A stretch of 64,000 nt of DNA. Source: Candidatus Thiothrix putei (GTDB lineage Bacteria > Pseudomonadota > Gammaproteobacteria > Thiotrichales > Thiotrichaceae). A program made the translations under genes and the position numbers. Below the pieces are notes generated by a model. It had not been told where the DNA came from, made no database searches, and saw only the letters and a list, made by a program, of their open reading frames with translations. The stretch spans positions 186,001-250,000 of the forward strand of contig CP124756.1 of the NCBI GenBank assembly GCA_029972225.1. Reading direction: 5' to 3'. This document shows positions 15,418-43,203 of this stretch, in pieces (position 1 is the stretch's first letter; every line of letters starts with the position of its first letter).

Positions 15418-16664
15418 CCGACCAGCCTAACGTCACCACTTCTTGCGACACGCTGCCCAGTGGCACACTTGCTGTCGAACAGGCGCAAGCCCGCGTGCTC
15501 GATAGCATCCAAGCCCTGCGTGATACCGAAACCTTACCACTGATGCAAGCTGCCGGGCGCATCCTTGCTGAACCTGCCCGTGCACAAATGCAAGTACCGC
15601 CACACACCAATTCTGCGATGGATGGCTACGCTTTGCGCCATGCGGATAGCGGGGCGTCATTGCACGTCATCGGCACGGCCTTTGCGGGGCATCCGTTTAC
15701 TGGCACAGTGCAGGCAGGTGAATGCGTGCGCATTATGACGGGCGCAGTTCTGCCTGCGGGAGCCGATAGTGTGGTCATGCAGGAAAACGTGCAACGCGAC
15801 GGTGACACCATCCGGCTTTCCGGCACGCTCAAGCGGGGTGAAAACGTGCGTTATGCCGGTGAGGACAGTCAACCCGGTGATATTTTGCTCGAAGCAGGGC
15901 GCAAGCTCAACGCCGCTGACCTTGGTATGCTTGCCTCGCAAGGCATTAGCACGGTGACGGTCTGGCGGCGGGTACGGGTAGCGTTTTGCTCCACGGGCGA
16001 TGAACTCACCCCCTTGGGTATGCCGCTACAGCCCGGTCAGATTTACGATAGCAACCGCTATACCCTACACGCGATGCTGCAAACGCTGGATGTGGACATG
16101 ATCGACATGGGCATTATCCGTGACACCCCACAAGCGGTGGAGCAGGCATTCCAGCAAGCCACATTAACGGCTGATGTGTTGATCACCAGTGGCGGGGTAT
16201 CGGTTGGTGAAGCCGATTACGTGTCTGATACGCTGCAACGTTTGGGGCAAGTCAATTTCTGGAAAATCGCTTTCAAACCGGGCAAACCGTTAGCTTTTGG
16301 GACGTTGGGCGATTGCCTGTTTTTCGGCTTGCCGGGTAATCCGGTATCGGTGATGGTGACTTTTCTGCTGTTCGTGCGCCCTGCCATCCTTACATTACGG
16401 GGTGAAAGCGTGCCACTCATACCGGAATACCCGGCTATTTGCGACACGCCACTGAAAAAAGCACCAGGGCGCAAGGATTACCAGCGCGGTATTGCGGAGC
16501 GTGACAGCACTGGGCAGTGGCATGTGCGCACTACTGGCAACCAAGGTTCGCATGTGTTGCGTTCCATGAGCCAAGCCAATTGCTTTATTGTCTTACCGTT
16601 GGAGTGGGGCAATGTGGCGGCTGGTACGTCTGTGACGATTATCCCTTTTGAGGGGTTGATGTGA
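15414..16664 (+). CDS. moeA: Molybdopterin molybdenumtransferase MoeA, copy 1
   Basis: A 416-residue MoeA, which inserts molybdate into adenylylated molybdopterin. Visible are the N-terminal PPHTNSAMDGYALRH motif, the MoaB/Mog-like domain (VDVLITSGGVSVGEADYV homologue at residues about 245-265, then FGLPGNPVSVMV) and the C-terminal domain IV ending VTIIPFEGLM. It overlaps dusC by four bases. A close paralogue lies at 19974-21230; the two are nearly identical in the last 90 residues. Confidence 0.93.
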   Translation: MTDQPNVTTSCDTLPSGTLAVEQAQARVLDSIQALRDTETLPLMQAAGRILAEPARAQMQVPPHTNSAMDGYALRHADSGASLHVIGTAFAGHPFTGTVQAGECVRIMTGAVLPAGADSVVMQENVQRDGDTIRLSGTLKRGENVRYAGEDSQPGDILLEAGRKLNAADLGMLASQGISTVTVWRRVRVAFCSTGDELTPLGMPLQPGQIYDSNRYTLHAMLQTLDVDMIDMGIIRDTPQAVEQAFQQATLTADVLITSGGVSVGEADYVSDTLQRLGQVNFWKIAFKPGKPLAFGTLGDCLFFGLPGNPVSVMVTFLLFVRPAILTLRGESVPLIPEYPAICDTPLKKAPGRKDYQRGIAERDSTGQWHVRTTGNQGSHVLRSMSQANCFIVLPLEWGNVAAGTSVTIIPFEGLM

Positions 16665-19977: not shown

Positions 19978-21230
19978 GTAACACCCTGAAATCAGCCATT
20001 TCCTGTGACACCATGCTGCAAGGCACACTCAGTGTTGAACAAGCGCAAGCGCGGATACTGGAAAGTATTACGCCACTGCATGACATGGAATATGTCGAAT
20101 TGTTGCAAGCGGGTGGGCGTATTCTTGCTAAGCCTGTCTATGCGCAGATGAATGTCCCGCCCCATACCAATTCCGCGATGGATGGTTATGCCCTGCGCCA
20201 TGCCGATCTGGCGGAAGGCGCGTGGTTGAAGATTGTCGGTAGCGCTTTCGCGGGTCGTCCCTTTGCTGGTGTGGTGCAGGCGGGCGAATGTGTGCGCATC
20301 ATGACAGGCGCGGTTTTGCCCGCTGGCGCAGATACTGTGGTCATGCAGGAAAATGTGCAGTGCGAAGATCATGCCATCCACGTTTCTGGCAAGCTCTCTG
20401 TCGGTGAAAACGTTCGCCATGCCGGGGAAGACAGCAAGGTTGGTGATCTGCTGCTGGTTGCCGGGCATAAACTGAATGCCGCTGACATTGGCTTGCTGGC
20501 TTCCCAAGGGATTGCCAAGGTTGCGGTGATCCGCCGCCTGCGCGTGGCGTTCTGCTCCACGGGCGACGAACTCAAAATCCTCGGTGATACCCTGCAACCC
20601 GGCGATATTTACGACAGTAACCGCTATACCCTCCACACCTTGCTGCAAAAGCTGGATGTGGAAATGTTCAATCTGGGTGTGGTGCGCGACACACGGGAAT
20701 CCGTGGAAATGGTTTTCCGCCATGCACGCGATATGGCAGATGTCTTTATCACCAGCGGTGGCGTATCCGTTGGCGAAGCGGATTATGTCACCGACACGCT
20801 GAAAAGCATGGGGCAAGTCAATTTCTGGAAAATCGCCTTCAAACCGGGCAAACCGCTGGCGTTTGGCACATTGGGCAATTGCCTGTTCTTCGGCTTGCCG
20901 GGGAATCCTGTTTCGGTGATGGCAACATTTCTGCTGTTCGTGCGCCCTGCCATTCTCGCTTTGCGCGGGGAAACCGTGCCACTCGTGCCGGAATACACCG
21001 CTATTTGCGATACGCCACTGAAAAAAGAACCGGGGCGCAAAGATTACCAACGCGGCATTTGTGAGCGTGACAGCAGCGGGCAATGGCACGTCCGCACCAC
21101 GGGCAACCAAGGTTCGCATGTGTTGCGTTCCATGAGCCAAGCCAACTGTTTTATTGTCTTGCCGCTTGAGTGGGGCAATGTGGAAGCGGGAACAGCGGTC
21201 ACGATTATCCCGTTCGAGGGGCTGATGTGA
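19974..21230 (+). CDS. moeA: Molybdopterin molybdenumtransferase MoeA, copy 2
   Basis: A 418-residue second MoeA with the same motifs as copy 1 (PPHTNSAMDGYALRH, VFITSGGVSVGEADYV, FGLPGNPVSVMA, VTIIPFEGLM). ATG 19974 overlaps the rhodanese stop and is supported by similarity to copy 1; the longer frame open to 19827 is the rhodanese gene read in another phase. The paralogues differ most in the first 120 residues. One may serve molybdenum and the other another metal or enzyme, but nothing in the sequence shows this. Confidence 0.92.
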   Translation: MSNTLKSAISCDTMLQGTLSVEQAQARILESITPLHDMEYVELLQAGGRILAKPVYAQMNVPPHTNSAMDGYALRHADLAEGAWLKIVGSAFAGRPFAGVVQAGECVRIMTGAVLPAGADTVVMQENVQCEDHAIHVSGKLSVGENVRHAGEDSKVGDLLLVAGHKLNAADIGLLASQGIAKVAVIRRLRVAFCSTGDELKILGDTLQPGDIYDSNRYTLHTLLQKLDVEMFNLGVVRDTRESVEMVFRHARDMADVFITSGGVSVGEADYVTDTLKSMGQVNFWKIAFKPGKPLAFGTLGNCLFFGLPGNPVSVMATFLLFVRPAILALRGETVPLVPEYTAICDTPLKKEPGRKDYQRGICERDSSGQWHVRTTGNQGSHVLRSMSQANCFIVLPLEWGNVEAGTAVTIIPFEGLM

Positions 21231-33818: not shown

Positions 33819-34100
33819 TCAATCAGCTTTTCCGCCTTTCTTGTTCGCACCCAGCAGTTTAGCGTCCTGCAATTTGCGCCCAAATTCATCATCCTGCGCT
33901 ACGTTGGCAAGGTCTTCCGCCAGATTCAGTGCTGCCAACATAGTCAGGTAGTGACCGATGGAAACACCAGCATCCCCCTTTTCAATTTTACGCAGGGTGA
34001 TTGGGCTGATACCGGTGCGTTCGCTGATCAGTTTCTGGGTAAGCTGGCGGCGTTTGCGTGCCAACTCGCGGCGGCGGATATTGCGGCGAAAATTTACCAA
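33819..34100 (-). CDS. XRE-family helix-turn-helix regulator
   Basis: A 93-residue protein with one helix-turn-helix (RRQLTQKLISERTGISPITL, RKIEKGDAGVSIGHYLTML). The only start is TTG 34100, overlapping the stop of the NYN frame. It resembles antitoxin-type regulators usually placed before hipA-like genes, but no such gene follows. The first bases of the gene (34059-34083) match, on the opposite strand, the start of the HIT gene over 25 bp. Confidence 0.75.
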   Translation of the reverse strand: MVNFRRNIRRRELARKRRQLTQKLISERTGISPITLRKIEKGDAGVSIGHYLTMLAALNLAEDLANVAQDDEFGRKLQDAKLLGANKKGGKAD

Positions 34101-34758
34101 CTGCTTGGCTTGGTAATGGATGTTCCGGGTATCTTATGAGGCAATTGTGCTTGTGCCATATCGTCCAACTTAAGCACTTTCACCCAATGGGATAAGGCTT
34201 TCAGTTCCTTGCAGATATGCCGATGATCAGAGCTGGCAATCGGCGTGACCAAACCCACTCGCACAGCGGGGCAATGCTGGCGAATTGCCTTCAATGCTCC
34301 TTCTATGTCGCTGTCATTGCTGCATAACACCACTTGTTCACATTGCCCAAGAAATACTGCTGTCAGCATATCACTGGCAATGTTCACGTCGGTTTTTTTC
34401 TCAGTCAGCGTAATAACCCTTGCCATCGTCAACTCTGGTGCTGCCGGAATCGGTTCTGCAAGGCGCAGAATCGGAGTGCTTTTAACCAGTTTCCCTTCAA
34501 AGATAGCAATCTTTTCTGGGTGTAATTTGCGTAATGCTTGCAGGTATTGCCGTTGGCGTTGAGGGGATGCGGGATCATCGCACAACAAACCCAATACCGG
34601 GCGGTGTAATAACGCACTTCCAGTAATTCTGTTTCTGGCAACAAGAGGCGTTCTTGGAATAGCTTGAAAATATCCAGCCACTTGTAAGGTGTGTGCCGCA
34701 CTATGCCGTAATACAAGTTGTAGCCGTCAATGAAAACGATGGTTCGCAAAATATTCAT
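34094..34758 (-). pseudogene. NYN-domain (PIN-like, LabA/DUF88) ribonuclease, frameshifted
   Basis: The N-terminal part (MNILRTIVFIDGYNLYYGIV, from ATG 34758) is in one frame. The rest (VLGLLCDDPASPQRQRQYL ... VVLCSNDSDIEGALKAIRQ ... VGLVTPIA) is in another. The switch is at about 34596-34600, where one extra C on the plus strand would restore YYTARVLGLL. The NYN acidic residues (FIDGYN, SNDSD) are otherwise present. The C-terminus overlaps the XRE gene, so the two were a pair. A sequencing error is possible. Confidence 0.7.
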
Positions 34759-34793: not shown

Positions 34794-34899
34794 GCCGCCC
34801 CAAGAGCATTTGACCTAGCCAAACGGTCAAGGGGAGAGTCGTGTTTCTATGATAGGATATTGTAACCGTAACTACAATGCCCAGTTTTCCTCAGCTTAA

Positions 34900-34972
34900 A
34901 ACGCCATGTGGCTTCACTGGTTTGCACTCACGGCTGTGGAAAGGCGGTGTATTGGAAATAACGGTCAAATAG
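34900..34972 (+). pseudogene. HIT-gene remnant with internal deletion
   Basis: 34900-34935 matches the HIT gene at about 35377-35411 (GCCATGTGGCTTCACTG). It is joined directly to 34937-34970, which matches 35611-35645 (AAAGGCGGTGTATTGGAAAT) including bases beyond the HIT stop. It encodes nothing. Confidence 0.65.
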
Positions 34973-34982
34973 GAGAACGGAA

Positions 34983-35185
34983 TTAGCGAGCCGCATACAT
35001 CAGCACGGCGCGAATATCGGCTGCTTCCAAATAGGGGGAGTCTTCCAGAATCTCTTTGGTTTCCATGCCTTCCGCCAGCATCCCAGCACATCTTGTACAC
35101 GGATACGCAAGCCGCGAATGCAAGGGCGACCGCCACATTTGCCTGTTTCAACCGTGATGCGGCTTAACAAATTTTCTGATGTCAT
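34983..35185 (-). pseudogene. DUF433 antitoxin-like gene, frameshifted
   Basis: ATG 35185 opens LLSRITVETGKCGGRPCIRG, the DUF433 signature. The frame shifts at about 35082-35084 and continues as MLAEGMETKEILEDSPYLEA to a stop at 34983. DUF433 proteins are antitoxins of PIN-like DUF5615 toxins; no toxin gene is left beside it. It lies between a HIT remnant and the full HIT gene. Confidence 0.7.
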
Positions 35186-35250
35186 GTTACAACCCACTTG
35201 AGTATTGGTGTTTCCGACTTTGCTGAAACAGTAACATAAGGAGTAATCAC

Positions 35251-35637
35251 ATGACCACTGCATCATTTTGCCCGTTCTGCCAACTCGCGGCGGCGGATAT
35301 TGTGGCGGAAAATGCGTTTCATGTGGTCATTCGGGATCGTTTTCCGGTGTCGTTGGGGCATTCGCTGCTTATTCCGAAGCGTCATGTGGCTTCACTGTTT
35401 GAACTTACGGCTGAAGAATTCAACGCTTTGCATGAATTGCTGCATCTCACTAAGCAGCAATTGGATACCCAACACCAGCCCGCAGGCTATAACATCGGGG
35501 TAAATGTCGGGGAAGCGGCAGGGCAAACGGTGTTTCACCTGCATGTGCATGTGATGCCGCGTTATGTGGGCGATCAGGAAGATCCTCGTGGTGGGGTAAG
35601 GTGGATTTTTCCTGAAAAGGCGGTGTATTGGAAATGA
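35251..35637 (+). CDS. HIT-family nucleotide hydrolase/transferase
   Basis: A 128-residue HIT protein. The histidine triad is HLHVHV (residues about 97-102); FCPFCQ at the N-terminus and the LGHSLLIPKRHVASLFEL stretch are typical. The family hydrolyses or transfers nucleoside phosphates such as AppppA or AMP-amides. AAGGAG precedes ATG 35251. The last 40 codons are repeated, in frame and 94% identical by my count, at 36380-36498 behind an inserted toxin-antitoxin pair. Confidence 0.9.
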   Translation: MTTASFCPFCQLAAADIVAENAFHVVIRDRFPVSLGHSLLIPKRHVASLFELTAEEFNALHELLHLTKQQLDTQHQPAGYNIGVNVGEAAGQTVFHLHVHVMPRYVGDQEDPRGGVRWIFPEKAVYWK

Positions 35638-35640
35638 CGG

Positions 35641-36054
35641 TCAACTAATAACATCAAAATTTTTGAGGTGATGACCTGCCTCAATTCGATAGACAAAAAA
35701 ATCATTACGGTCGGTAGTGAATACTCGGTTTGTTTTTAAGCATTGAGCGGCAACAACTAGCGAGGCATCCGCTAAATCCATTGGGCGGTCGATGTATTTT
35801 TCCATCAGGTTTAGAGCTGTTTCAACACCAGCATCATCCATCAGCCATACTGCCAAGCCATTCCGCGCAATGAATTGTCGTAAAGCCTTACTTCCTTGGC
35901 TGTCAGGGCAGAGCAGGTGAAATACTTCAGTCAAGACAGGCAGTGTTGTTACCATCGGCTCGTGCAATGTTTGCATGATTTTAGTGCAGTGCTTGTGGTA
36001 CGGATCTTGTGGATCAAACAGGGCGACTAAGGGGCCAGTATCGACCAAAATCAT
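35641..36054 (-). CDS. VapC-like PIN-domain ribonuclease toxin
   Basis: A 137-residue PIN protein with acidic residues in MILVDTGPLVALFD, LTEVFHLL, PMDLADASLVVAA and FTTDRNDF, the full set for VapC-type RNases. It overlaps the antitoxin gene by four bases. It runs opposite to the HIT gene, with three bases between the two stops. Confidence 0.88.
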   Translation of the reverse strand: MILVDTGPLVALFDPQDPYHKHCTKIMQTLHEPMVTTLPVLTEVFHLLCPDSQGSKALRQFIARNGLAVWLMDDAGVETALNLMEKYIDRPMDLADASLVVAAQCLKTNRVFTTDRNDFFVYRIEAGHHLKNFDVIS

Positions 36055-36302
36055 TGTTTGTGTTTCCGCAACAAGAGTTCACGTATGCCTTGTTTGGCGC
36101 GGTTGGAAGGAAATTGTGCGTATCCACCGACTCCCAAATCTAGCGTTTGGTAGATAGCAAATGGGGTTGAACTCGCGGGCTTTGCGGCGGTAACAGGTGC
36201 TTGGTATTTGGCAAGCATGAATTCTACGAAATCCAGTATTTCTTGCTGGATATTTTCCGGCAAGGTACGTGTCTGGCGGATAATTTGGTCAAACGTTTGC
36301 AT
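36051..36302 (-). CDS. VapB/DUF2281-like antitoxin
   Basis: ATG 36302 is chosen because GAGAGGTAAG precedes it. The 83-residue protein has a helical start (QTFDQIIRQTRTLPENIQQEI, FVEFMLAKYQ) like DUF2281/VapB proteins and a C-terminal toxin-wrapping tail (YAQFPSNRAKQGIRELLLRK). It overlaps the PIN gene, so the pair is one toxin-antitoxin unit. Confidence 0.78.
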   Translation of the reverse strand: MQTFDQIIRQTRTLPENIQQEILDFVEFMLAKYQAPVTAAKPASSTPFAIYQTLDLGVGGYAQFPSNRAKQGIRELLLRKHKQ

Positions 36303-36379
36303 GGCACTTACCTCTCTGTGTTGTATGGTATGAGTATACGCCAAGGGTTGCGCTTAAGTCGAAGTCACGTCCTAAAAAT

Positions 36380-36504
36380 AAGCGGCAGGGCAAACGGTGT
36401 TTCACCTGCATGTGCATGTGATGCCGCGTTATACGGGCGATCAGGAAGATCCGCGTGGTGGCGTGCGGTGGGTTTTTCCTGAAAAGGCGGTGTATTGGGA
36501 TTAG
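36380..36504 (+). pseudogene. Displaced 3' end of the HIT gene
   Basis: 119 bp (36380-36498) align without gaps to 35513-35631, 7 mismatches by my count. The frame is kept (AAGQTVFHLHVHVMPRYTGD, then QEDPRGGVRWVFPEKAVYWD and stop). It has no start. It looks like the original end of the HIT gene, moved away by the inserted toxin-antitoxin cassette. Confidence 0.75.
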
Positions 36505-37397
36505 CGATACTTGCCTTGGAACACCTCGCGAATATGCCAATCCGTAAATTCGGTCTGCGGTGCATATAGCGAATTGCGCGGTTTCAGCAGTGCTTTGCCG
36601 TCGAAATTGAGCACCCATTCTTGAAAGCCACCATGTCCGTTTGCTTTTTCTGACACTACGATTTTCTGCTCATTGGAAATGGCTAACGCGCCACGGTCGA
36701 GCAATTTATGGTGCAAAGAGCAGAGTGCCAAACCGTTGCTTTCAATATCGGGGCCACCTGCTTGAAACCATTTGATGTGGGCGGCTTCGAGCGCAATTGG
36801 GGTGTTTTCCATGCGTACACTGAAATTACAAATAGCGCAGCGGTAGTCGTAAGCCTCCAGTATACGGCGGCGAAATGTTGGGTCACGCTTGGCACGTTTT
36901 TGCGTGGTGAGTTGCGGAATTGCTTCAAAATCCAAGCCGACTTCATCCAAAATATCTTGATGGACAGACGACGGGAAATTGTCCTCCAACAATTGTATCG
37001 CTACTTGTTGCAGCAGTTCTGCATTGGTTTTTAGCAGGTCGTATACCTCTTGAGTGAAGCCTGCTTCAACGTGGTTATCGCGCAAATACTTTTTGCTGAT
37101 GCTGCCGGATGCGGTCAAAACGCCGGTAGAACGCGGCATTTCCCAAATCAGATCAGACTGCAAATGCCAGAACGGTAATTCGGGGTAATAGCTGGCGCGG
37201 CTGGGGCCGAAGTCTTGCAATAACTGTGTGAGCTTTGCATCGATCTGATCAAACGGAATTAAACGCGGTAACTCGGCATGAATACGCCCTAATGCCAATA
37301 GCAGCAATAGTGGTTTGTGCGGAGCGCGTTGGTCGCCTTTTTTCCAGACGTTTAACGCGGTGATGCGGGTGATGAGTTCTTGCGCATTCATTAACAT
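36501..37397 (-). CDS. Phosphorothioate-DNA-binding HNH restriction endonuclease
   Basis: A 298-residue protein. The N-terminal domain (NVWKKGDQRAPHKPLLLLLA, DFGPSRASYYPELPFWHLQ) matches the sulfur-binding domain of type IV enzymes such as ScoMcrA/SprMcrA-like proteins. The C-terminal part is an HNH nuclease (DYRCAICNFSVR, LEAAHIKWFQAGGPD, NGLALCSLHHKLLDRG). The family cuts DNA carrying phosphorothioate modification. No dnd modification genes are in the window, so it would act against modified incoming DNA. Confidence 0.82.
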   Translation of the reverse strand: MLMNAQELITRITALNVWKKGDQRAPHKPLLLLLALGRIHAELPRLIPFDQIDAKLTQLLQDFGPSRASYYPELPFWHLQSDLIWEMPRSTGVLTASGSISKKYLRDNHVEAGFTQEVYDLLKTNAELLQQVAIQLLEDNFPSSVHQDILDEVGLDFEAIPQLTTQKRAKRDPTFRRRILEAYDYRCAICNFSVRMENTPIALEAAHIKWFQAGGPDIESNGLALCSLHHKLLDRGALAISNEQKIVVSEKANGHGGFQEWVLNFDGKALLKPRNSLYAPQTEFTDWHIREVFQGKYR

Positions 37398-37423: not shown

Positions 37424-37744
37424 TTATACGCCATCTTGCGACTCATTTTGCAGTGCAAATGCTTTCATGAGAACAGCACGGCGTGTTTCCGTATGATCGC
37501 TAAACCCACGCGCTGCCAAGTCACGTTCAAGTCCTTTTTTGTCATATTCACTCAGATACCCGATATGAGCCATTAATACACCAATTATTTTATCGGCTTT
37601 CTCCAACTCGAATAAAACGTTATCGGCTAAGTCGATATTGTTTTCTAAGAATTTTTCAGCCGCTTGTTTTCTCATTAGTCCTTTCCTTGTTAGCGTGTCG
37701 GCGACTTCTATCAGATTGCGTATGTGAGTGTTAGCACTTGCCAT
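37424..37744 (-). CDS. Hypothetical small helical protein
   Basis: ATG 37744 is chosen because AAGGAC lies 8 bases upstream. The 106 residues are mostly helical and charged (RNLIEVADTLTRKGLMRKQA, DLADNVLFELEKADKIIGVL). Not recognised. It sits between the endonuclease and the truncated methyltransferase, just where the missing N-terminal part of the latter would be expected. Confidence 0.5.
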   Translation of the reverse strand: MASANTHIRNLIEVADTLTRKGLMRKQAAEKFLENNIDLADNVLFELEKADKIIGVLMAHIGYLSEYDKKGLERDLAARGFSDHTETRRAVLMKAFALQNESQDGV

Positions 37745-37893
37745 TTTATAGTCCTTGATCGTTTTAGTGTTCGTAAAAACTGGAGTTTCAGAGCCACTGG
37801 TATAGCACAAGTTGTTCTCCCAAAGCCGAACGCGCCGCCCGCCTCACCAAAGCCGACAAAGAACGCGCCTTCTACGAACAACACGCAGCCTTA

Positions 37894-39291
37894 TTGGATG
37901 CACTCTGGCTACGCTGGCTAGAACTGGGCAGACCACCCCAAGACGACGAATTCCCCGACCTTGCCGCCAGCAAAGACCTGTTCGGCACAACACAACGCGC
38001 CCTGAAATTCCTGCAACGCTTCCAGGGTGATGAACTGCTGAAACTCGCTTTCGACAGCCGCCGCGATGACCTCACGGTGTACTTTGCGATGCGCCGTTTC
38101 GACCAACAACGCATTTACCGCCACTTGCCGGAAAGCCTCAAGCGCGATGTCAAAGCCTTCTTCCAAAACTACCAACACGCCCAAACCGACGGCGAACGCC
38201 TGTTATTCTCAGCGGGCAACCCCGCGTTGCTGCGCCAAATGTGCCAACAAGCCGCCGCGCAAGGCTATGGCTATCTCGATGAAGAAGGCGCATTCACCTT
38301 CCACACCGCACAAGTCGTGGCATTGCCGCCGATTTTGCGGGTCTACATCGGTTGCGCCACCTTCGTTTTCGGTGACGTGACTTCTGCCGATTTGCTGAAA
38401 ATCCATGCCGAATCCGGCAAATTATCGCTGATGAAATACGATGACTTCGAGGAATCGCCCCTGCCACGCTTGCTGGAACGCATCAAAATCAGCCTAGTCA
38501 ATCAACGTTTCGAGTATTACAAATACGGCGACACCTACACCCCGCCTTACTTGTACCGAAAAGCGCGTTTCCTCACCCCCGATTTCCCGCACTACGCCGA
38601 ACAACTCGCCTTTGACCAAGTGCTGGCAACCCACCCTGAATTTGCCTTAGACGGTTACGGAATGCCTCTCGAACAATTCGATGCCACCTTGCAGCGTTTA
38701 CGCTTGGCAGTCGTGGGCTTTGAACTGCAACCCGCGCAACATACCCCCGCGTTGGATGACCCCTGCGGTCAATACCACACCTTCCGCGATTTCATCGAAT
38801 GCGGCGCAACCCAAGCCAACACCGGCTTACCCAACCTGCCCAAACAGCCTGACACCTATAACGCACTCGCCGCGCTTGCCCTGCACATTATCGACCCGGT
38901 AATGGATTACTTTGGCGGTATCGAACTCACCTACGGCTTCTGCTCCCCCGAACTCGCCAAACACATCAAAGGCAGCATCGACCCCAAACGCGACCAACAC
39001 GCCGCCCATGAAGTGAATACCCGTGGCAACCTGATCTGCGAGCGCAAAGGTGCAGCCTGTGATTTCATCGTCCCCGACGAAAACATGCTGGAAGTCGCGC
39101 AATGGATCGTGCAAAACACCCCGTTTGACCGCCTGTATTTCTACGGCAACGGCAAACCGCTACACGTCAGCTACAGTGACGCACACAACCGTGCCATCGT
39201 GCTGATGTTACCGGGGAAAAGCGGGCGGCTCGTGCCGAAGGTGGTGACGGCGGAAAGATTCAGCGAAATAACCATTGATTGCCCTCGTTAA
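37894..39291 (+). CDS. Phosphorothioation-associated putative methyltransferase, N-terminally truncated, with M15-like C-terminus
   Basis: The frame is open from 37777 with no good start (TTG 37894 is the first candidate), so about 200-300 N-terminal residues with the methyltransferase fold are missing. What remains matches the second half of the DNA phosphorothioation-associated methyltransferase family (TIGR04096-like): FYEQHAALLDALWLRWLELG, DDLTVYFAMRRFD, LPPILRVYIGCATFVFGDV, LLKIHAESGKLSLMKYDDFE. Residues about 330-450 resemble a peptidase M15/hedgehog zinc site (DQHAAHE, ACDFIVP, PLHVSY). Its last 130 bp recur downstream at 40801-40930. The family call is from memory of the family sequence. 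Confidence 0.68.
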   Translation: MDALWLRWLELGRPPQDDEFPDLAASKDLFGTTQRALKFLQRFQGDELLKLAFDSRRDDLTVYFAMRRFDQQRIYRHLPESLKRDVKAFFQNYQHAQTDGERLLFSAGNPALLRQMCQQAAAQGYGYLDEEGAFTFHTAQVVALPPILRVYIGCATFVFGDVTSADLLKIHAESGKLSLMKYDDFEESPLPRLLERIKISLVNQRFEYYKYGDTYTPPYLYRKARFLTPDFPHYAEQLAFDQVLATHPEFALDGYGMPLEQFDATLQRLRLAVVGFELQPAQHTPALDDPCGQYHTFRDFIECGATQANTGLPNLPKQPDTYNALAALALHIIDPVMDYFGGIELTYGFCSPELAKHIKGSIDPKRDQHAAHEVNTRGNLICERKGAACDFIVPDENMLEVAQWIVQNTPFDRLYFYGNGKPLHVSYSDAHNRAIVLMLPGKSGRLVPKVVTAERFSEITIDCPR

Positions 39292-39332
39292 GTCTACATT
39301 GAGCTACACTAAGCGTAACTTCATGTAGACTT
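39290..39332. promoter_or_regulatory. Inverted-repeat operator of the AbiE pair
   Basis: Perfect 10-bp arms, AAGTCTACAT (39290-39299) and ATGTAGACTT (39323-39332), lie 8 bases before the antitoxin start. AbiEi antitoxins are known to repress their promoter by binding such repeats. Confidence 0.75.
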
Positions 39333-39340
39333 AAATTGCG

Positions 39341-39889
39341 ATGCAACCGATTAAACACTTGGCAAATACGCTCAAAGCACTGGCTAACAGTGAACATTGT
39401 TTGTTCACCTTGAGTGATTTACGTGGCGCAATGCCGGAGCAAACCCCTGCTGCATTCAAGGCATTACTCAGTCGTGCAGAACAGACTGGCTTGCTTAAAC
39501 GCATTTGCCGGGGTTTATACCTTTACCCAGAAACTTACGCTAACGATGGCTTGCTGTTGTATCGTGCGGCGGCGCGGTTGCGGGCGGGTGAATTTAATTA
39601 CATCAGTCTGGAATCAGCCTTGAGTGATGCGGGGGTTATTTCTCAGCTTCCCATGAACTGGGTTACGCTGATGTCATCGGGACGCACGCATATTATGGAT
39701 TGTGGCAACTTCGGCAAGATTGAATTCATCCACACCAAAAAGCAGGCGGCAGATTTGGCAAACCAACTGGTTTACGACACCCGTTGCCATTTATGGCGGG
39801 CAAATGTGGGATTGGCATTACGCGATATGAAGCGCACCTGTCGCGATACGGATTTAATTGACTGGAAGGTTGCCCATGAATTTGTTTAA
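39341..39889 (+). CDS. AbiEi-type antitoxin (type IV toxin-antitoxin)
   Basis: A 182-residue protein with an N-terminal winged helix (LFTLSDLRGAMPEQTPAAFK, LLKRICRGLYLYP) and the AbiEi C-terminal domain (FNYISLESALSDAGVISQLP, THIMDCGNFGKIEFIHTKK). It represses the operon and counteracts the toxin enzymatically rather than by binding it. It overlaps the toxin gene by 14 bases. Confidence 0.88.
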   Translation: MQPIKHLANTLKALANSEHCLFTLSDLRGAMPEQTPAAFKALLSRAEQTGLLKRICRGLYLYPETYANDGLLLYRAAARLRAGEFNYISLESALSDAGVISQLPMNWVTLMSSGRTHIMDCGNFGKIEFIHTKKQAADLANQLVYDTRCHLWRANVGLALRDMKRTCRDTDLIDWKVAHEFV

Positions 39890-40772
39890 CCAGCTTGTTT
39901 CCCAAGCCATGCAAGAGCAAGGTGATCTAGCCCCGTTACGCACCGTGGTGGAAAAAGAGTTGCTGCACCATGACATTCTGCGGGAGATGGCGGAAGCGGG
40001 GTTGTTGAGTCAATTGACTTTCATCGGTGGCACTTGCTTGCGGGCGTGTTACGGTTCTAACCGTTTAAGCGAAGATTTGGATTTTACCGGCGGTGCTGAT
40101 TTTCAGCGTGAAACCCTGAGTCACTTGGGTGCGGTATTGGTTGAACGCTTACGGGTAAAATACGGTCTTGCGGTTGAAGTCAGCGAGCCAAGCCGCGAAT
40201 CGGGCAATGTGGATACGTGGAAATTACGGGTGATTACCCAGCCGAAACAACGGCATTTGCCTGCCCAGCGCATTAACATCGACATTTGCGCTATCCCCAG
40301 TTACGACAAACGCCCGCAGGTATTACGCAACCATTACGGGGTGGACATGGGAACATCCGGTCTGATCCTGCAAGCCGAAAGCCGTGAAGAAATTCTTGCT
40401 GACAAATTAGTGGCTTTCGCGTTACGCCCCAACCGCATCAAAAACCGTGACTTGTGGGACATCACTTGGTTGCGACAACAAAATATTCAGGCTCCATTAG
40501 ACTTGGTAGCAAAGAAGGTGATTGATCATCGCTATGCGACCCAACAGTTTACGCAATTGATGGCACAACGTTCCCAGCAGTTGCGTGATGACTCTGATAT
40601 TCATCGCTATTTTGTGCAGGAAATGCGTCGTTTTCTCCCCACTGCTGTAGTGGTGCGCACAGTAGAAAATACCGCCTTCTGGACTTATCTGGCAGACACC
40701 GTGCGGGGCGAATGTGCGCGGGTTATGCAATTTTTAGAGGCGGGTGATACAGCTCAGCAGTTTACGATGTAA
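39876..40772 (+). CDS. AbiEii-type nucleotidyltransferase toxin
   Basis: ATG 39876 inside the antitoxin end is the likely start (298 residues). It is a DUF1814 nucleotidyltransferase: LTFIGGTCLRACYGSNRLSE followed by DLDFTG gives the GG-Sx-DxD core, and later motifs INIDICAIP and ILADKLVAFALRP with KNRDLWDITWL are in place. AbiEii adds nucleotides to cellular RNA targets and stops growth during phage infection. Confidence 0.9.
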   Translation: MNLFNQLVSQAMQEQGDLAPLRTVVEKELLHHDILREMAEAGLLSQLTFIGGTCLRACYGSNRLSEDLDFTGGADFQRETLSHLGAVLVERLRVKYGLAVEVSEPSRESGNVDTWKLRVITQPKQRHLPAQRINIDICAIPSYDKRPQVLRNHYGVDMGTSGLILQAESREEILADKLVAFALRPNRIKNRDLWDITWLRQQNIQAPLDLVAKKVIDHRYATQQFTQLMAQRSQQLRDDSDIHRYFVQEMRRFLPTAVVVRTVENTAFWTYLADTVRGECARVMQFLEAGDTAQQFTM

Positions 40773-40800
40773 GATTTTCCCTGAGTTATGCTTTCCTACT

Positions 40801-40955
40801 GCCTGTATTTCTACAGCAACGACAAACCGCTACACGTCAGCTACGGCGATGCACACAACCGCGCTATTGTGCTGATGTTACCGGGGAAAAGCGGGCGACT
40901 CGTGCCGAAAGTGGTAACAGCGGAAAGATTCGCCGCGATGACAGCAGAGGTTTAG
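40801..40955 (+). pseudogene. Displaced 3' end of the phosphorothioation-associated gene
   Basis: 40801-40930 aligns without gaps to 39131-39260 with about 12 mismatches, mostly synonymous, and continues to its own stop (LYFYSNDKPLHVSYGDAHNR ... VVTAERFAAMTAEV). It has no start. It looks like the original gene end, moved away by the AbiE cassette. Confidence 0.75.
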
Positions 40956-41018: not shown

Positions 41019-41270
41019 ATGAAAACACGAATTGCGAATAAACTGACATTGCGTTTACCCCAATCATTGCATGAGAAGATCAAAGAGCTGGCAAAGGCGG
41101 ATGGTGTCTCGATCAATCAATTTTTGGTAACAGCGGCGGCTGAAAAAATGTCTGCCTTGCTGACCAAAAATTATTTGGCACAAGAAGCTGCTCAAGCCTC
41201 TCGTGCAGATTTTCTCAAGGTCATGCGTGCTGTACCGGATGTTGAGCCGGAGGCGTTCGACCGTTTGTGA
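41019..41270 (+). CDS. Ribbon-helix-helix (HicB/Arc-like) protein
   Basis: An 83-residue protein. Residues about 5-45 form a ribbon-helix-helix (NKLTLRLPQSLHEKIKELAK, DGVSINQFLVTAAAEKM), as in HicB-type or Arc-type antitoxins. A helical tail follows. No toxin gene is next to it, so it is an orphan or a regulator. Confidence 0.75.
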   Translation: MKTRIANKLTLRLPQSLHEKIKELAKADGVSINQFLVTAAAEKMSALLTKNYLAQEAAQASRADFLKVMRAVPDVEPEAFDRL

Positions 41271-41331: not shown

Positions 41332-43203
41332 ATGGCGAAGTTAATCCCCTCTTTACAAAGTTGTCTCAACCGCATGACTTCCGGCGAAAAGCGTTTTGCG
41401 CGGCGTTTGGAGCAGTTATTGGAAGATGATTACCTGTGTTGGTATGAGCCGCGTGTGGGTGAAGGTTTTCGCCAGCGTTACGCCGATTTCATTATTGTGC
41501 ATCCCTGGCGGGGATTATTGCTGCTGGAAGTCAAAGATTGGAAGTTGGATAGCATTCAGTCTATCGACAAAGCCTCAGCGACCTTGCTAACCCCGCAAGG
41601 CGTGAAAACCGTCACCAACCCGCTGGAACAAGCGCGGCAATGTGCTTATAAGTTGGTGCAGCAACTCGAACAAGACCCGCAATTGATTCAATACGCGGGA
41701 AGGTATCAGGGCAAATTGGCATTCCCTTACGGTTATGGTGTGGTACTGACCAATATGAGCCGCCAGCAGTTTAGCAATACCGATTTGTCAGCCGTGTTGC
41801 CGTGGAATCGCACCCTGTGCAGTGATGAAATGCTGGAAAATACTGACCCGGAAGATTTCCAGCAGTGTTTGTGGAATATGTTCGATTACCAATTCAGCAA
41901 ACCGCTGACCGTGCCGCAATTGGATCGCATCCGCTGGCATATTTTCCCAGAGATTCGCATTGCCTCCCAAGGCAGTTTGTTTGCTGACCCACCGGCGGAC
42001 GTTGCGGACAAACCCCTCGAAACTGTGTTGCCCGATATTCTGAAAGTGATGGATCTGCAACAGGAACAACTGGCTCGCAGCATGGGGCGTGGGCATCGCG
42101 TCATTCACGGGGTTGCCGGTTCTGGCAAAACCTTGATATTGGCGTACCGTTGTTTGTATCTGGCAAAGGTGTTAGCCAAACCCATTTTGGTGCTGTGTTA
42201 CAACATTGCATTAGCGGCGCGGTTACGGGCATTGATGCAAGAAAAAGCCATTGATGACAAGGTGAGCGTTTACCACTTTCACGATTGGTGCGGTGAACAA
42301 TTGCGGGCGTATCACATCGACCGCCCAACGGAACACGGGCTTGAGTATCTGGATGCGCTGGTGAATACCGTCAGTGCTGCGGTGGAAAATGGGCGTATTC
42401 CCAAAGCGCAGTATGGCGCGATTATGATTGACGAAGGGCATGATTTTCAGCCCGCGTGGTTAAAGCTGATTAGCGGCATGGTTGACCCGGAAAAGGATTC
42501 CCTGTTGTTGTTATACGATGACGCGCAGTCGATTTATCAGCAAAGTAAAGCGTTGAAGTTCAGCCTGTCCAGCGTGGGGATTCAGGCACGTGGGCGCACC
42601 ACGGTGCTGCGGCTTAATTACCGCAATACCGATGAAATCTTTGGGTTTGCTTATCAATTTGCGCGGCAATACTTGCAACCGCACGACAGCGACGATGACC
42701 ATATACCGCTGCTTGCCCCTGAAATGGTGGGGCGGCACAGCTTTGCGCCGGTCTGCCGTTTGTTCCCCAGTTTTGCGGAAGAAACTGCACGGGTGGTGCG
42801 TTGGTTACGCCAATGGCATGAGGAACGCGGAACCGCATGGGCAGACATCGCGGTGTTGTACCGGCATTATCAACAGGGCGCGGCGTTGTGGCAGGCAATA
42901 CAGGCGGAAGGCGTACCTTGTGCTTGGTTGCGCGATGCCGCGAGTAAGAAAGGTTTTAACCCGGCGGACAATACTGTGAAGCTGATGACCTTCCACAGCA
43001 GCAAGGGATTAGAATTTCCGCTGGTCGTGGTTGCGGGTCTGGGTTTTATTAGTGCGGATGCAGAAAGTGCAGTCGACGAAGCCAAGCTATTGTATGTCGC
43101 GATGACCCGCGCTACTGACCGTTTATTGCTGACTAGCCATCAGGAAACGGACTTTACGCGAGTCTTGCAAAGTAAAACCACTTCCGTAGCAGTAACGCTT
43201 TAG
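41332..43203 (+). CDS. NERD-domain UvrD/Rep-like helicase
   Basis: A 623-residue protein. The N-terminal NERD nuclease-related domain (residues about 15-130) has Asp in YADFIIVHP and LLLEVKDWK. A superfamily 1 helicase follows: Walker A in HGVAGSGKTLILAY, motif II in IMIDEGHDFQP, motif III around LLLLYDDAQSIYQ, motif IV in TVLRLNYRNTDEI, motif V in LMTFHSSKGLEFPLVV and motif VI in LLYVAMTRATDRLLL. Such fusions are common in defence islands and probably degrade or process foreign DNA. Confidence 0.85.
   Translation: MAKLIPSLQSCLNRMTSGEKRFARRLEQLLEDDYLCWYEPRVGEGFRQRYADFIIVHPWRGLLLLEVKDWKLDSIQSIDKASATLLTPQGVKTVTNPLEQARQCAYKLVQQLEQDPQLIQYAGRYQGKLAFPYGYGVVLTNMSRQQFSNTDLSAVLPWNRTLCSDEMLENTDPEDFQQCLWNMFDYQFSKPLTVPQLDRIRWHIFPEIRIASQGSLFADPPADVADKPLETVLPDILKVMDLQQEQLARSMGRGHRVIHGVAGSGKTLILAYRCLYLAKVLAKPILVLCYNIALAARLRALMQEKAIDDKVSVYHFHDWCGEQLRAYHIDRPTEHGLEYLDALVNTVSAAVENGRIPKAQYGAIMIDEGHDFQPAWLKLISGMVDPEKDSLLLLYDDAQSIYQQSKALKFSLSSVGIQARGRTTVLRLNYRNTDEIFGFAYQFARQYLQPHDSDDDHIPLLAPEMVGRHSFAPVCRLFPSFAEETARVVRWLRQWHEERGTAWADIAVLYRHYQQGAALWQAIQAEGVPCAWLRDAASKKGFNPADNTVKLMTFHSSKGLEFPLVVVAGLGFISADAESAVDEAKLLYVAMTRATDRLLLTSHQETDFTRVLQSKTTSVAVTL

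Follow-up and report, generated by a model that had tools for sequence, protein, structure and literature searches.

The stretch analyzed here, hereafter the window, comprises 64,000 nucleotides (nt) of the genome of Candidatus Thiothrix putei (contig CP124756.1, positions 186,001 to 250,000). It carries an AbiE gene pair lodged between two copies of the 3' end of a DNA phosphorothioation-associated, methyltransferase-like gene. Our reading, to which we give a probability of roughly 0.6, is that AbiE was inserted behind this gene by recombination whose one side was anchored in the gene and whose other joint had no fixed site, the old gene end being pushed downstream, where it persists as copy 2. 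A HIT gene at the other edge of the same island probably served likewise, producing arrays in which the modules that separate the gene copies are mostly of the toxin-antitoxin type. The window's genome (G000) was compared with relatives of the same genus, among which G012 was taken as Thiothrix caldifontis DSM 21228 and G007 as T. fructosivorans. The coordinates of the features are collected in Table 1.

A repeat search of the window returned 39128–39272 and 40798–40942 as a direct repeat of 145 nt with 88% identity. By blastn the match covers 134 nt (39128–39261 and 40798–40931) at 90% identity, and an E-value of ~1e-48 means that the pair did not arise by chance. A preliminary description of this DNA had reported a gapless match between 39131–39260 and 40801–40930 with about 12 differences, some 8 of them synonymous; a recount gave precisely 12 and 8, and a thirteenth difference lies just outside, at position 39130. 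Copy 2 was also correctly described as being in frame and running to its own stop, since it is open from the ATG at 40788 to the TAG at 40955 (55 amino acids, aa). The same holds for the content of the insert, where AbiEi, AbiEii and an inverted repeat, the predicted operator, were found. No open reading frame (ORF) of at least 80 aa other than the AbiE pair is present between the copies, and the ORF list, Pfam and NCBIfam revealed no recombinase gene there; recombinases elsewhere in the genome were not searched for. The AbiEi antitoxin and the AbiEii nucleotidyltransferase are encoded together by overlapping genes, as is characteristic of type IV AbiE, and from their sequences they are predicted to act as an ordinary type IV toxin-antitoxin pair, in which the antitoxin would neutralise a bacteriostatic toxin, phage infection would be aborted, and AbiEi would regulate its own operon through an inverted-repeat operator. 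The ATG at 39876, which overlaps abiEi, is a likelier start for AbiEii than 39858.

Direct repeats around an insert are also what would be predicted if a circular molecule bearing the gene end and AbiE had been integrated by a single homologous crossover of the Campbell type, as are full-length copies like those of the HIT gene in G009 (see below). With the AbiE pair as the sole ORFs of that size in the insert, and with a joint at the start of copy 2 which would have to come from the circle, yet differs among the three cassettes compared, such an integration appears improbable.

The relatives indicate which of the two copies is old. G009 and G012 lack AbiE at this place and possess a single long methyltransferase-like gene, the end of which continues into the sequence following copy 2 in the window; a PIN/CopG pair stands behind it. 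T. eikelboomii likewise has a single gene end with the copy 2-type tail, not followed in this case by any toxin-antitoxin pair. This tail is also seen in the gene remnant of G006. In G005 the full gene runs on in the manner of copy 2, yet a further 56-nt gene end lies downstream. Because the single-copy relatives carry the tail of copy 2, we take this copy to be the old end in a displaced position, and AbiE to have brought the tail that copy 1 has beyond 39261. The locus thus shows direct repeats on the order of 100 base pairs (bp) around an insert and one copy in relatives without the insert, the anatomy of a long target duplication. The insertion event proposed in the preliminary description is supported by the single gene end of G009, G012 and T. 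eikelboomii, which also rules out a repeat older than the cassette; no such predating repeat was found in these three. In G005 and G007, which are also without AbiE, the two copies present enclose other cargo. The joints of G003 are identical in arrangement to those of the window, and in G001 the methyltransferase-like gene is followed by AbiE and then by a gene which we take to be asd-like, with no copy 2. In G009 AbiE survives only as the inverted-repeat operator stretch and the start of abiEi, behind the helicase gene.

The same layout occurs at this gene with different cargo. In G007 the gene end and its second copy, which match at 95% over 104 nt, enclose a TnpB (OrfB_IS605) gene and a UPF0175-family gene. 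PIN and CopG ORFs come after the second copy; one ORF of this genome was initially read as a DUF3368 remnant, a reading since dropped. In G005 the gene end and the second, 56-nt end flank a CopG/HicB-like gene, with HipBA after them. Given these differing cargos and the AbiE remnant of G009, the same modules therefore change places among several gene ends.

At the HIT gene the first case of the preliminary description was recovered: positions 35513–35631 are repeated at 36380–36498 with 94% identity, and the PIN and DUF2281 genes lie between. The order in the window is HIT remnant, NYN gene, HIT remnant, DUF433 gene, HIT gene, PIN/DUF2281 pair, HIT end and restriction gene. Of the six HIT copies in G009 three are full, and the intervals contain DUF5615, HipA, NYN and other ORFs (L224 2202–8404, corresponding to G009:C2:960201–966403), and this array stands before a shortened phosphorothioation restriction gene. 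Three HIT copies are present in G003, where the intervals hold HipB with a split HipA, and ORFs without an assigned family. Two G003 ORFs (L094 11118–11594 and 10930–11214) were considered as an AbiEi-like antitoxin and rejected, neither having a Pfam match and the first having no NCBIfam match either. HipA is found between a HIT remnant and HIT in G006, and a NERD/UvrD helicase likewise in G010 (remnants of 42–47 nt). The claim that unrelated toxin-antitoxin types share one layout accordingly stands, this layout recurring in several species and at both border genes of the island.

Fifteen intervals between copies of the HIT or methyltransferase-like gene were tallied from the fetched loci, which are not a random sample, with arrangements common to G000 and G012 and to G000 and G003 counted once. 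Ten contain a toxin-antitoxin-type gene or its remnant (DUF433/DUF5615 and UPF0175 presumably being of this type), two NYN only, one a helicase, and two nothing nameable; the HipA intervals of G003 and G009 and the NYN intervals of G000 and G009 may each represent one event counted twice. Three different HIT-linked modules come behind the same TGACGGTCA, which stands right after the HIT stop (window 35626–35650; L224, L094 and L223) and may reflect chance, a shared flank or a preferred joint.

The HIT copies also bear on the source of the duplicated ends. In a tree of the 10 long copies, with fragments left out, the three full copies of G009 and the two of G003 are split by one change in 0% of 200 bootstrap trees, and a copy of G009 stands with G010 at 100/99. 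Over 119 sites, the displaced HIT end of the window shows 7 differences from the window's full HIT gene and 3 from copy 2 of G009. Copies that do not group by genome, and the closer match to G009, are as expected if the incoming DNA brought its own gene end.

They speak against a long target duplication within one cell, in which a long staggered break or a replication template switch would have copied AbiE from elsewhere and restarted ~134 nt upstream in the same gene, for the full HIT copies of one genome stem from different lineages. Such a duplication would produce the same anatomy from one event, and the AbiE trace behind the G009 helicase marks a possible template place. It also suits G007, where identity between the two copies is 95%, against a difference of ~20% to the genes of other lineages, and the divergence of copy 1 from copy 2 (13 nt in G000, 7 nt in G003), which is near that between the genomes (9 for copy 1, 7 for copy 2). 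As to whether both copies derive from the recipient's own target, G007 is in favour, the HIT copies are against, and the methyltransferase copies support neither. Taken together, we consider duplication within one cell rather unlikely, though worth keeping in view.

In the insertion that we prefer, anchored by homology on one side, donor DNA with a homologous gene end and AbiE behind it would have entered the cell, perhaps by natural transformation. In such homology-facilitated illegitimate recombination, which needs RecA and DNA uptake or conjugation, RecA-type pairing would account for the left side and a short match or none for the right side; the old gene end would have been pushed downstream as copy 2, and the finished arrangements could then have spread between species as longer homologous segments. 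One-sided homology is present, the anchor gene of G000 being 95–98% identical to that of G001, G005, G009 and G012. The starts of the displaced copies vary, the match being 134, ~104 and 56 nt long at the methyltransferase gene, and several starts are seen at HIT; these differing starts rule out a single common insertion core. The joint of the hipB-region and HIT in the window has 8 exact nt in common, and the right joint of G005 lies on an imperfect 13-nt match (10–11 of 13, by eye).

From the variable starts, together with HIT copies of different lineages, homology-anchored insertion with an illegitimate second joint is therefore favoured over a site-specific element. A recombinase or transposase that places cassettes in gene ends, in the manner of integrases at tRNA genes or integron sites, could explain why three HIT-linked modules share a sequence just past the HIT stop, why two methyltransferase tails (AbiE and HipBA) both diverge from the common sequence after GATTC, and why the G007 cassette contains an OrfB_IS605/TnpB gene. 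Selection, however, would place joints behind an intact gene and its stop codon anyway, the starts of the displaced copies offer no constant recombination site, and the insert of the window holds no recombinase gene, as noted above. We regard a site-specific origin as highly improbable.

Several observations weigh against the homology-anchored insertion. The 13-nt match of G005 could be a decayed gene end, the joint of HIT to the NYN flank is without exact overlap, and none is seen by eye where the HIT tail meets VapB in G001. No second parent is known for the right AbiE joint, so that microhomology is not scorable there. The methyltransferase gene yielded no recognizable donor tract, its site patterns being mosaic; the HIT tree is weak, with 5 of 7 inner branches below 80. 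The similarity of the two G007 copies means that the event in this genome needs a close donor or a local duplication. As to DNA uptake, ComEC, the sole uptake gene looked for, was present; it is a widespread gene, carried by 10 of 14 control genomes.

Once formed, the arrays seem, judging from identity values along the genomes, to be spread by ordinary homologous exchange. A 5.3-kilobase (kb) island segment is 96.4% identical between G000 and G003, versus 77% for the pil genes; with the same joints in both genomes, the arrangement has therefore moved between species. The AbiE operons of G000, G001 and G003 show 28–43 differences per 1515 nt. The pil genes of G012 are 99% identical to those of the window's genome, and its identity per 500 nt is 92–98% where aligned between 30.5 and 43.5 kb of the window, 98.6–99.6% at 43.5–45 kb, 94.6–98.2% at 45–48 kb and 98–100% at 48–57.5 kb. 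More tentatively, the HIT and methyltransferase-like border genes might constitute an integrase-free cassette platform, in which gene-end copies serve as homology landing pads and toxin-antitoxin modules (VapBC, HipBA, DUF433/DUF5615, AbiE, UPF0175) are stacked, swapped and traded between species.

The preliminary description had gone further and seen in the repeats a shared way in which toxin-antitoxin cassettes enter 3' gene ends. Within 864 kb of the window's genome (40 sampled 20-kb blocks and the window) there are 36 repeat pairs. In this genome, the window included, 2 of 36 toxin-antitoxin loci had flanking repeats, versus 8 of 240 control tiles (p = 0.62); the addition of loci from other genomes gave 5 of 63 (p = 0.15) against the same controls, all from the window's genome, with L185 (45 nt) and L191 (40 nt) counted though not tied to a gene end. 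Enrichment is thus not significant. When only gene-remnant repeats were considered, by post hoc sorting, the figures were 2 of 36 and 2 of 240 (p = 0.08). The survey covered 30 of 34 PIN, 3 of 3 ParE and 30 of 34 AbiEii places, certain places being fragments of a single gene, with flanks of 1.5 kb, so that longer cassettes can escape; the PIN search did not recover the window's own PIN gene, and its list is therefore incomplete.

Nine repeat-bearing blocks were opened (L096, L099, L106, L107, L121, L199, L200, L208 and L209) and others, for example L105, L126 and L133, were not; several of the other repeat pairs in the opened blocks were read as insertion sequences. An AAA/DUF4143 gene is duplicated at 98% around a Fic-domain gene, after which come HipBA-looking ORFs (L099 6116–12004; G000:C1:434116–440004). 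In G053, of another genus, an AbiE pair lies between a GIY-YIG gene and its remnant (L200 1672–3924). A PTPS gene has a remnant of its 5' half across HigBA and VapBC (L199 3822–7154; G000:C1:1210821–1214153); a reading of this locus (C1:1207000–1219500) as a simple insertion was not sustained, since its far flank is elsewhere in the relatives and a larger rearrangement is therefore involved.

The purL gene is a second hotspot with other cargo, its 5' parts being duplicated around a sulfatase gene in the window's genome or around DUF637 in G005 and G011 (L219 2231–6222, L220 3541–8692, L221 3299–7118). These cases, and the helicase flanked by HIT, rule out a mode exclusive to toxin-antitoxin genes. 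Specificity for 3' ends fares no better, the purL copies being 5' parts and the PTPS gene a mirror case. That the trace is special to toxin-antitoxin genes or to 3' ends is accordingly not proven.

Two further repeats were recorded. In L209 (11855–15299) a 125-nt repeat (90%) surrounds a 932-aa ORF, beside an ORF which we assume to be reverse-transcriptase-like. Positions 15651–16468 and 20217–21034 of the window are direct repeats with 72–84% identity, 4566 nt apart, and are probably paralogous genes.

The target gene, thought at first to have been kept intact, is a 465-aa C-terminal remnant in the window, where similarity to close relatives begins at ~37819. Its open frames measure 860–881 aa in seven relatives, 767 aa in G001 and 694 aa in G004. 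In G003, with the same arrangement as the window, the gene is interrupted by an internal stop, though G005 and G007 retain ORFs of 869 and 872 aa. In G012, 8.2 kb including DndC and DndD lie between HIT and the methyltransferase-like gene; no match of at least 120 nt to this dnd stretch was found in the window or the next 12 kb, dnd genes elsewhere in the genome not being searched for. Positions 37424–37894 of the window lack the dnd genes that G012 has there, as well as the 5' half of the methyltransferase-like gene. The phosphorothioation island of the window looks decayed.

Downstream of copy 2, the orphan CopG/HicB-like gene has a PIN partner in G009 (PIN_3) and, as similar ORFs, in G012 and G007. 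The partner is lost in G000, G003 and G005, and the start of the antitoxin gene is altered.

Table 1. Features of the island in the window, in order of position
Feature	Position	Strand	Basis and remarks
HIT gene remnant, 34 nt	34059..34092	+	94% to HIT nt 42-75
NYN-domain gene between HIT remnants	34097..34681	-	PF01936, 25.3 bits, barely above cut-off
Internally deleted HIT remnant	34899..34967	+	HIT nt 141-177 and 377-407
DUF433 gene	35003..35266	-	PF04255
Full HIT gene, probable second anchor	35251..35637	+	PF01230
PIN toxin of VapBC-type pair	35641..36054	-	PF01850
DUF2281/VapB antitoxin	36051..36344	-	PF10047; NF050009 match under its cut-off
HIT 3' end, read as displaced	36380..36498	+	94% to 35513-35631
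Phosphorothioated-DNA-binding restriction endonuclease	36501..37397	-	NF045808, 356.9 bits
5'-truncated DNA phosphorothioation-associated methyltransferase-like gene (TIGR04096), anchor gene	37894..39291	+	NCBIfam match, profile positions 203-475 of 478 only
Copy 1 of methyltransferase-like gene end	39128..39261	+	Direct repeat; tail beyond 39261 unlike tail of G005, G009, G012
Inverted repeat upstream of abiEi, predicted operator	39288..39334 (arms 39288-39310/39312-39334)	.	23-nt arms, 83% complementary, 1 nt apart
AbiEi antitoxin	39341..39889	+	NF047376, 194.6 bits; PADLOC AbiEi
AbiEii toxin ORF	39858..40772	+	PF08843, 103.7 bits; PADLOC AbiEii
Copy 2, read as displaced old methyltransferase-like gene end with ancestral tail	40798..40955	+	90% to copy 1 over 134 nt; runs through stop and 3' flank as full gene of G005, G009, G012
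Orphan CopG/HicB-like antitoxin gene	41019..41270	+	PF05534
NERD/UvrD helicase	41332..43203	+	Pfam and PADLOC

The route by which small toxin-antitoxin modules lacking a transposase or integrase get into chromosomes is often left open. Here insertion is caught with insert-free relatives, with various cargos found at one pair of genes, and with arrivals recorded by the gene ends left behind. Were this general, the acquisition of toxin-antitoxin modules could be traced by searching for displaced gene ends as its footprint, and ordinary recombination at border genes would be how defence islands grow. The striking HIT array merits a wider census. Among the titles and opening abstracts of a partly covered literature, no report of this arrangement was found for toxin-antitoxin arrays at HIT or phosphorothioation-linked genes. 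The transfer mode as such, which the preliminary description had suspected of being undescribed, already has equivalents in print in the long target duplication of restriction-modification genes and in effector-immunity displacement.

Integron cassette arrays contain tandem toxin-antitoxin modules separated by a repeated element. Unlike them, the present arrays show no integrase or attC, and what repeats in them is a protein gene whose length varies. In Rhs/CDI arrays displaced 3' gene ends are strung together with their modules and the displaced end encodes a toxin tip, whereas here it is the end of a bystander gene. Orphan toxin-tip arrays of the Rhs/CDI kind are mentioned by Kirchberger et al. 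(2017, PMC5361080), whose subject is type VI effector-immunity modules; these are displaced successively, with homology-facilitated illegitimate recombination suggested as a cause. The likeness extends to entry behind a conserved upstream anchor, the shift of the old 3' end downstream, the formation of arrays and the lack of a specific integration site. The cargo here is unlike that of the type VI modules in being toxin-antitoxin genes, and the anchors (the phosphorothioation-linked gene and HIT) are not themselves toxins.

Insertion of restriction-modification genes with long target duplication was reportedly described by Nobusato et al. in 2000. A paper of that year on long target duplication is cited, in connection with restriction-modification gene mobility, in PMC2654758, and PMC3874152 states that some restriction-modification systems insert with long, variable target duplications on the order of 100 bp. 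Addiction-type genes and direct duplications of that size are common to these systems and to ours; the cargo here is AbiE or other toxin-antitoxin genes and not restriction-modification, and the HIT copies are of different lineages and not one duplicated target. At the Helicobacter PabI locus one junction was apparently formed by homologous and the other by non-homologous recombination, according to PMC4615327. This locus resembles ours in the duplicated gene part around the insert; unlike the cassette of the window, the insert there is a conjugative-element region of ~50 kb.

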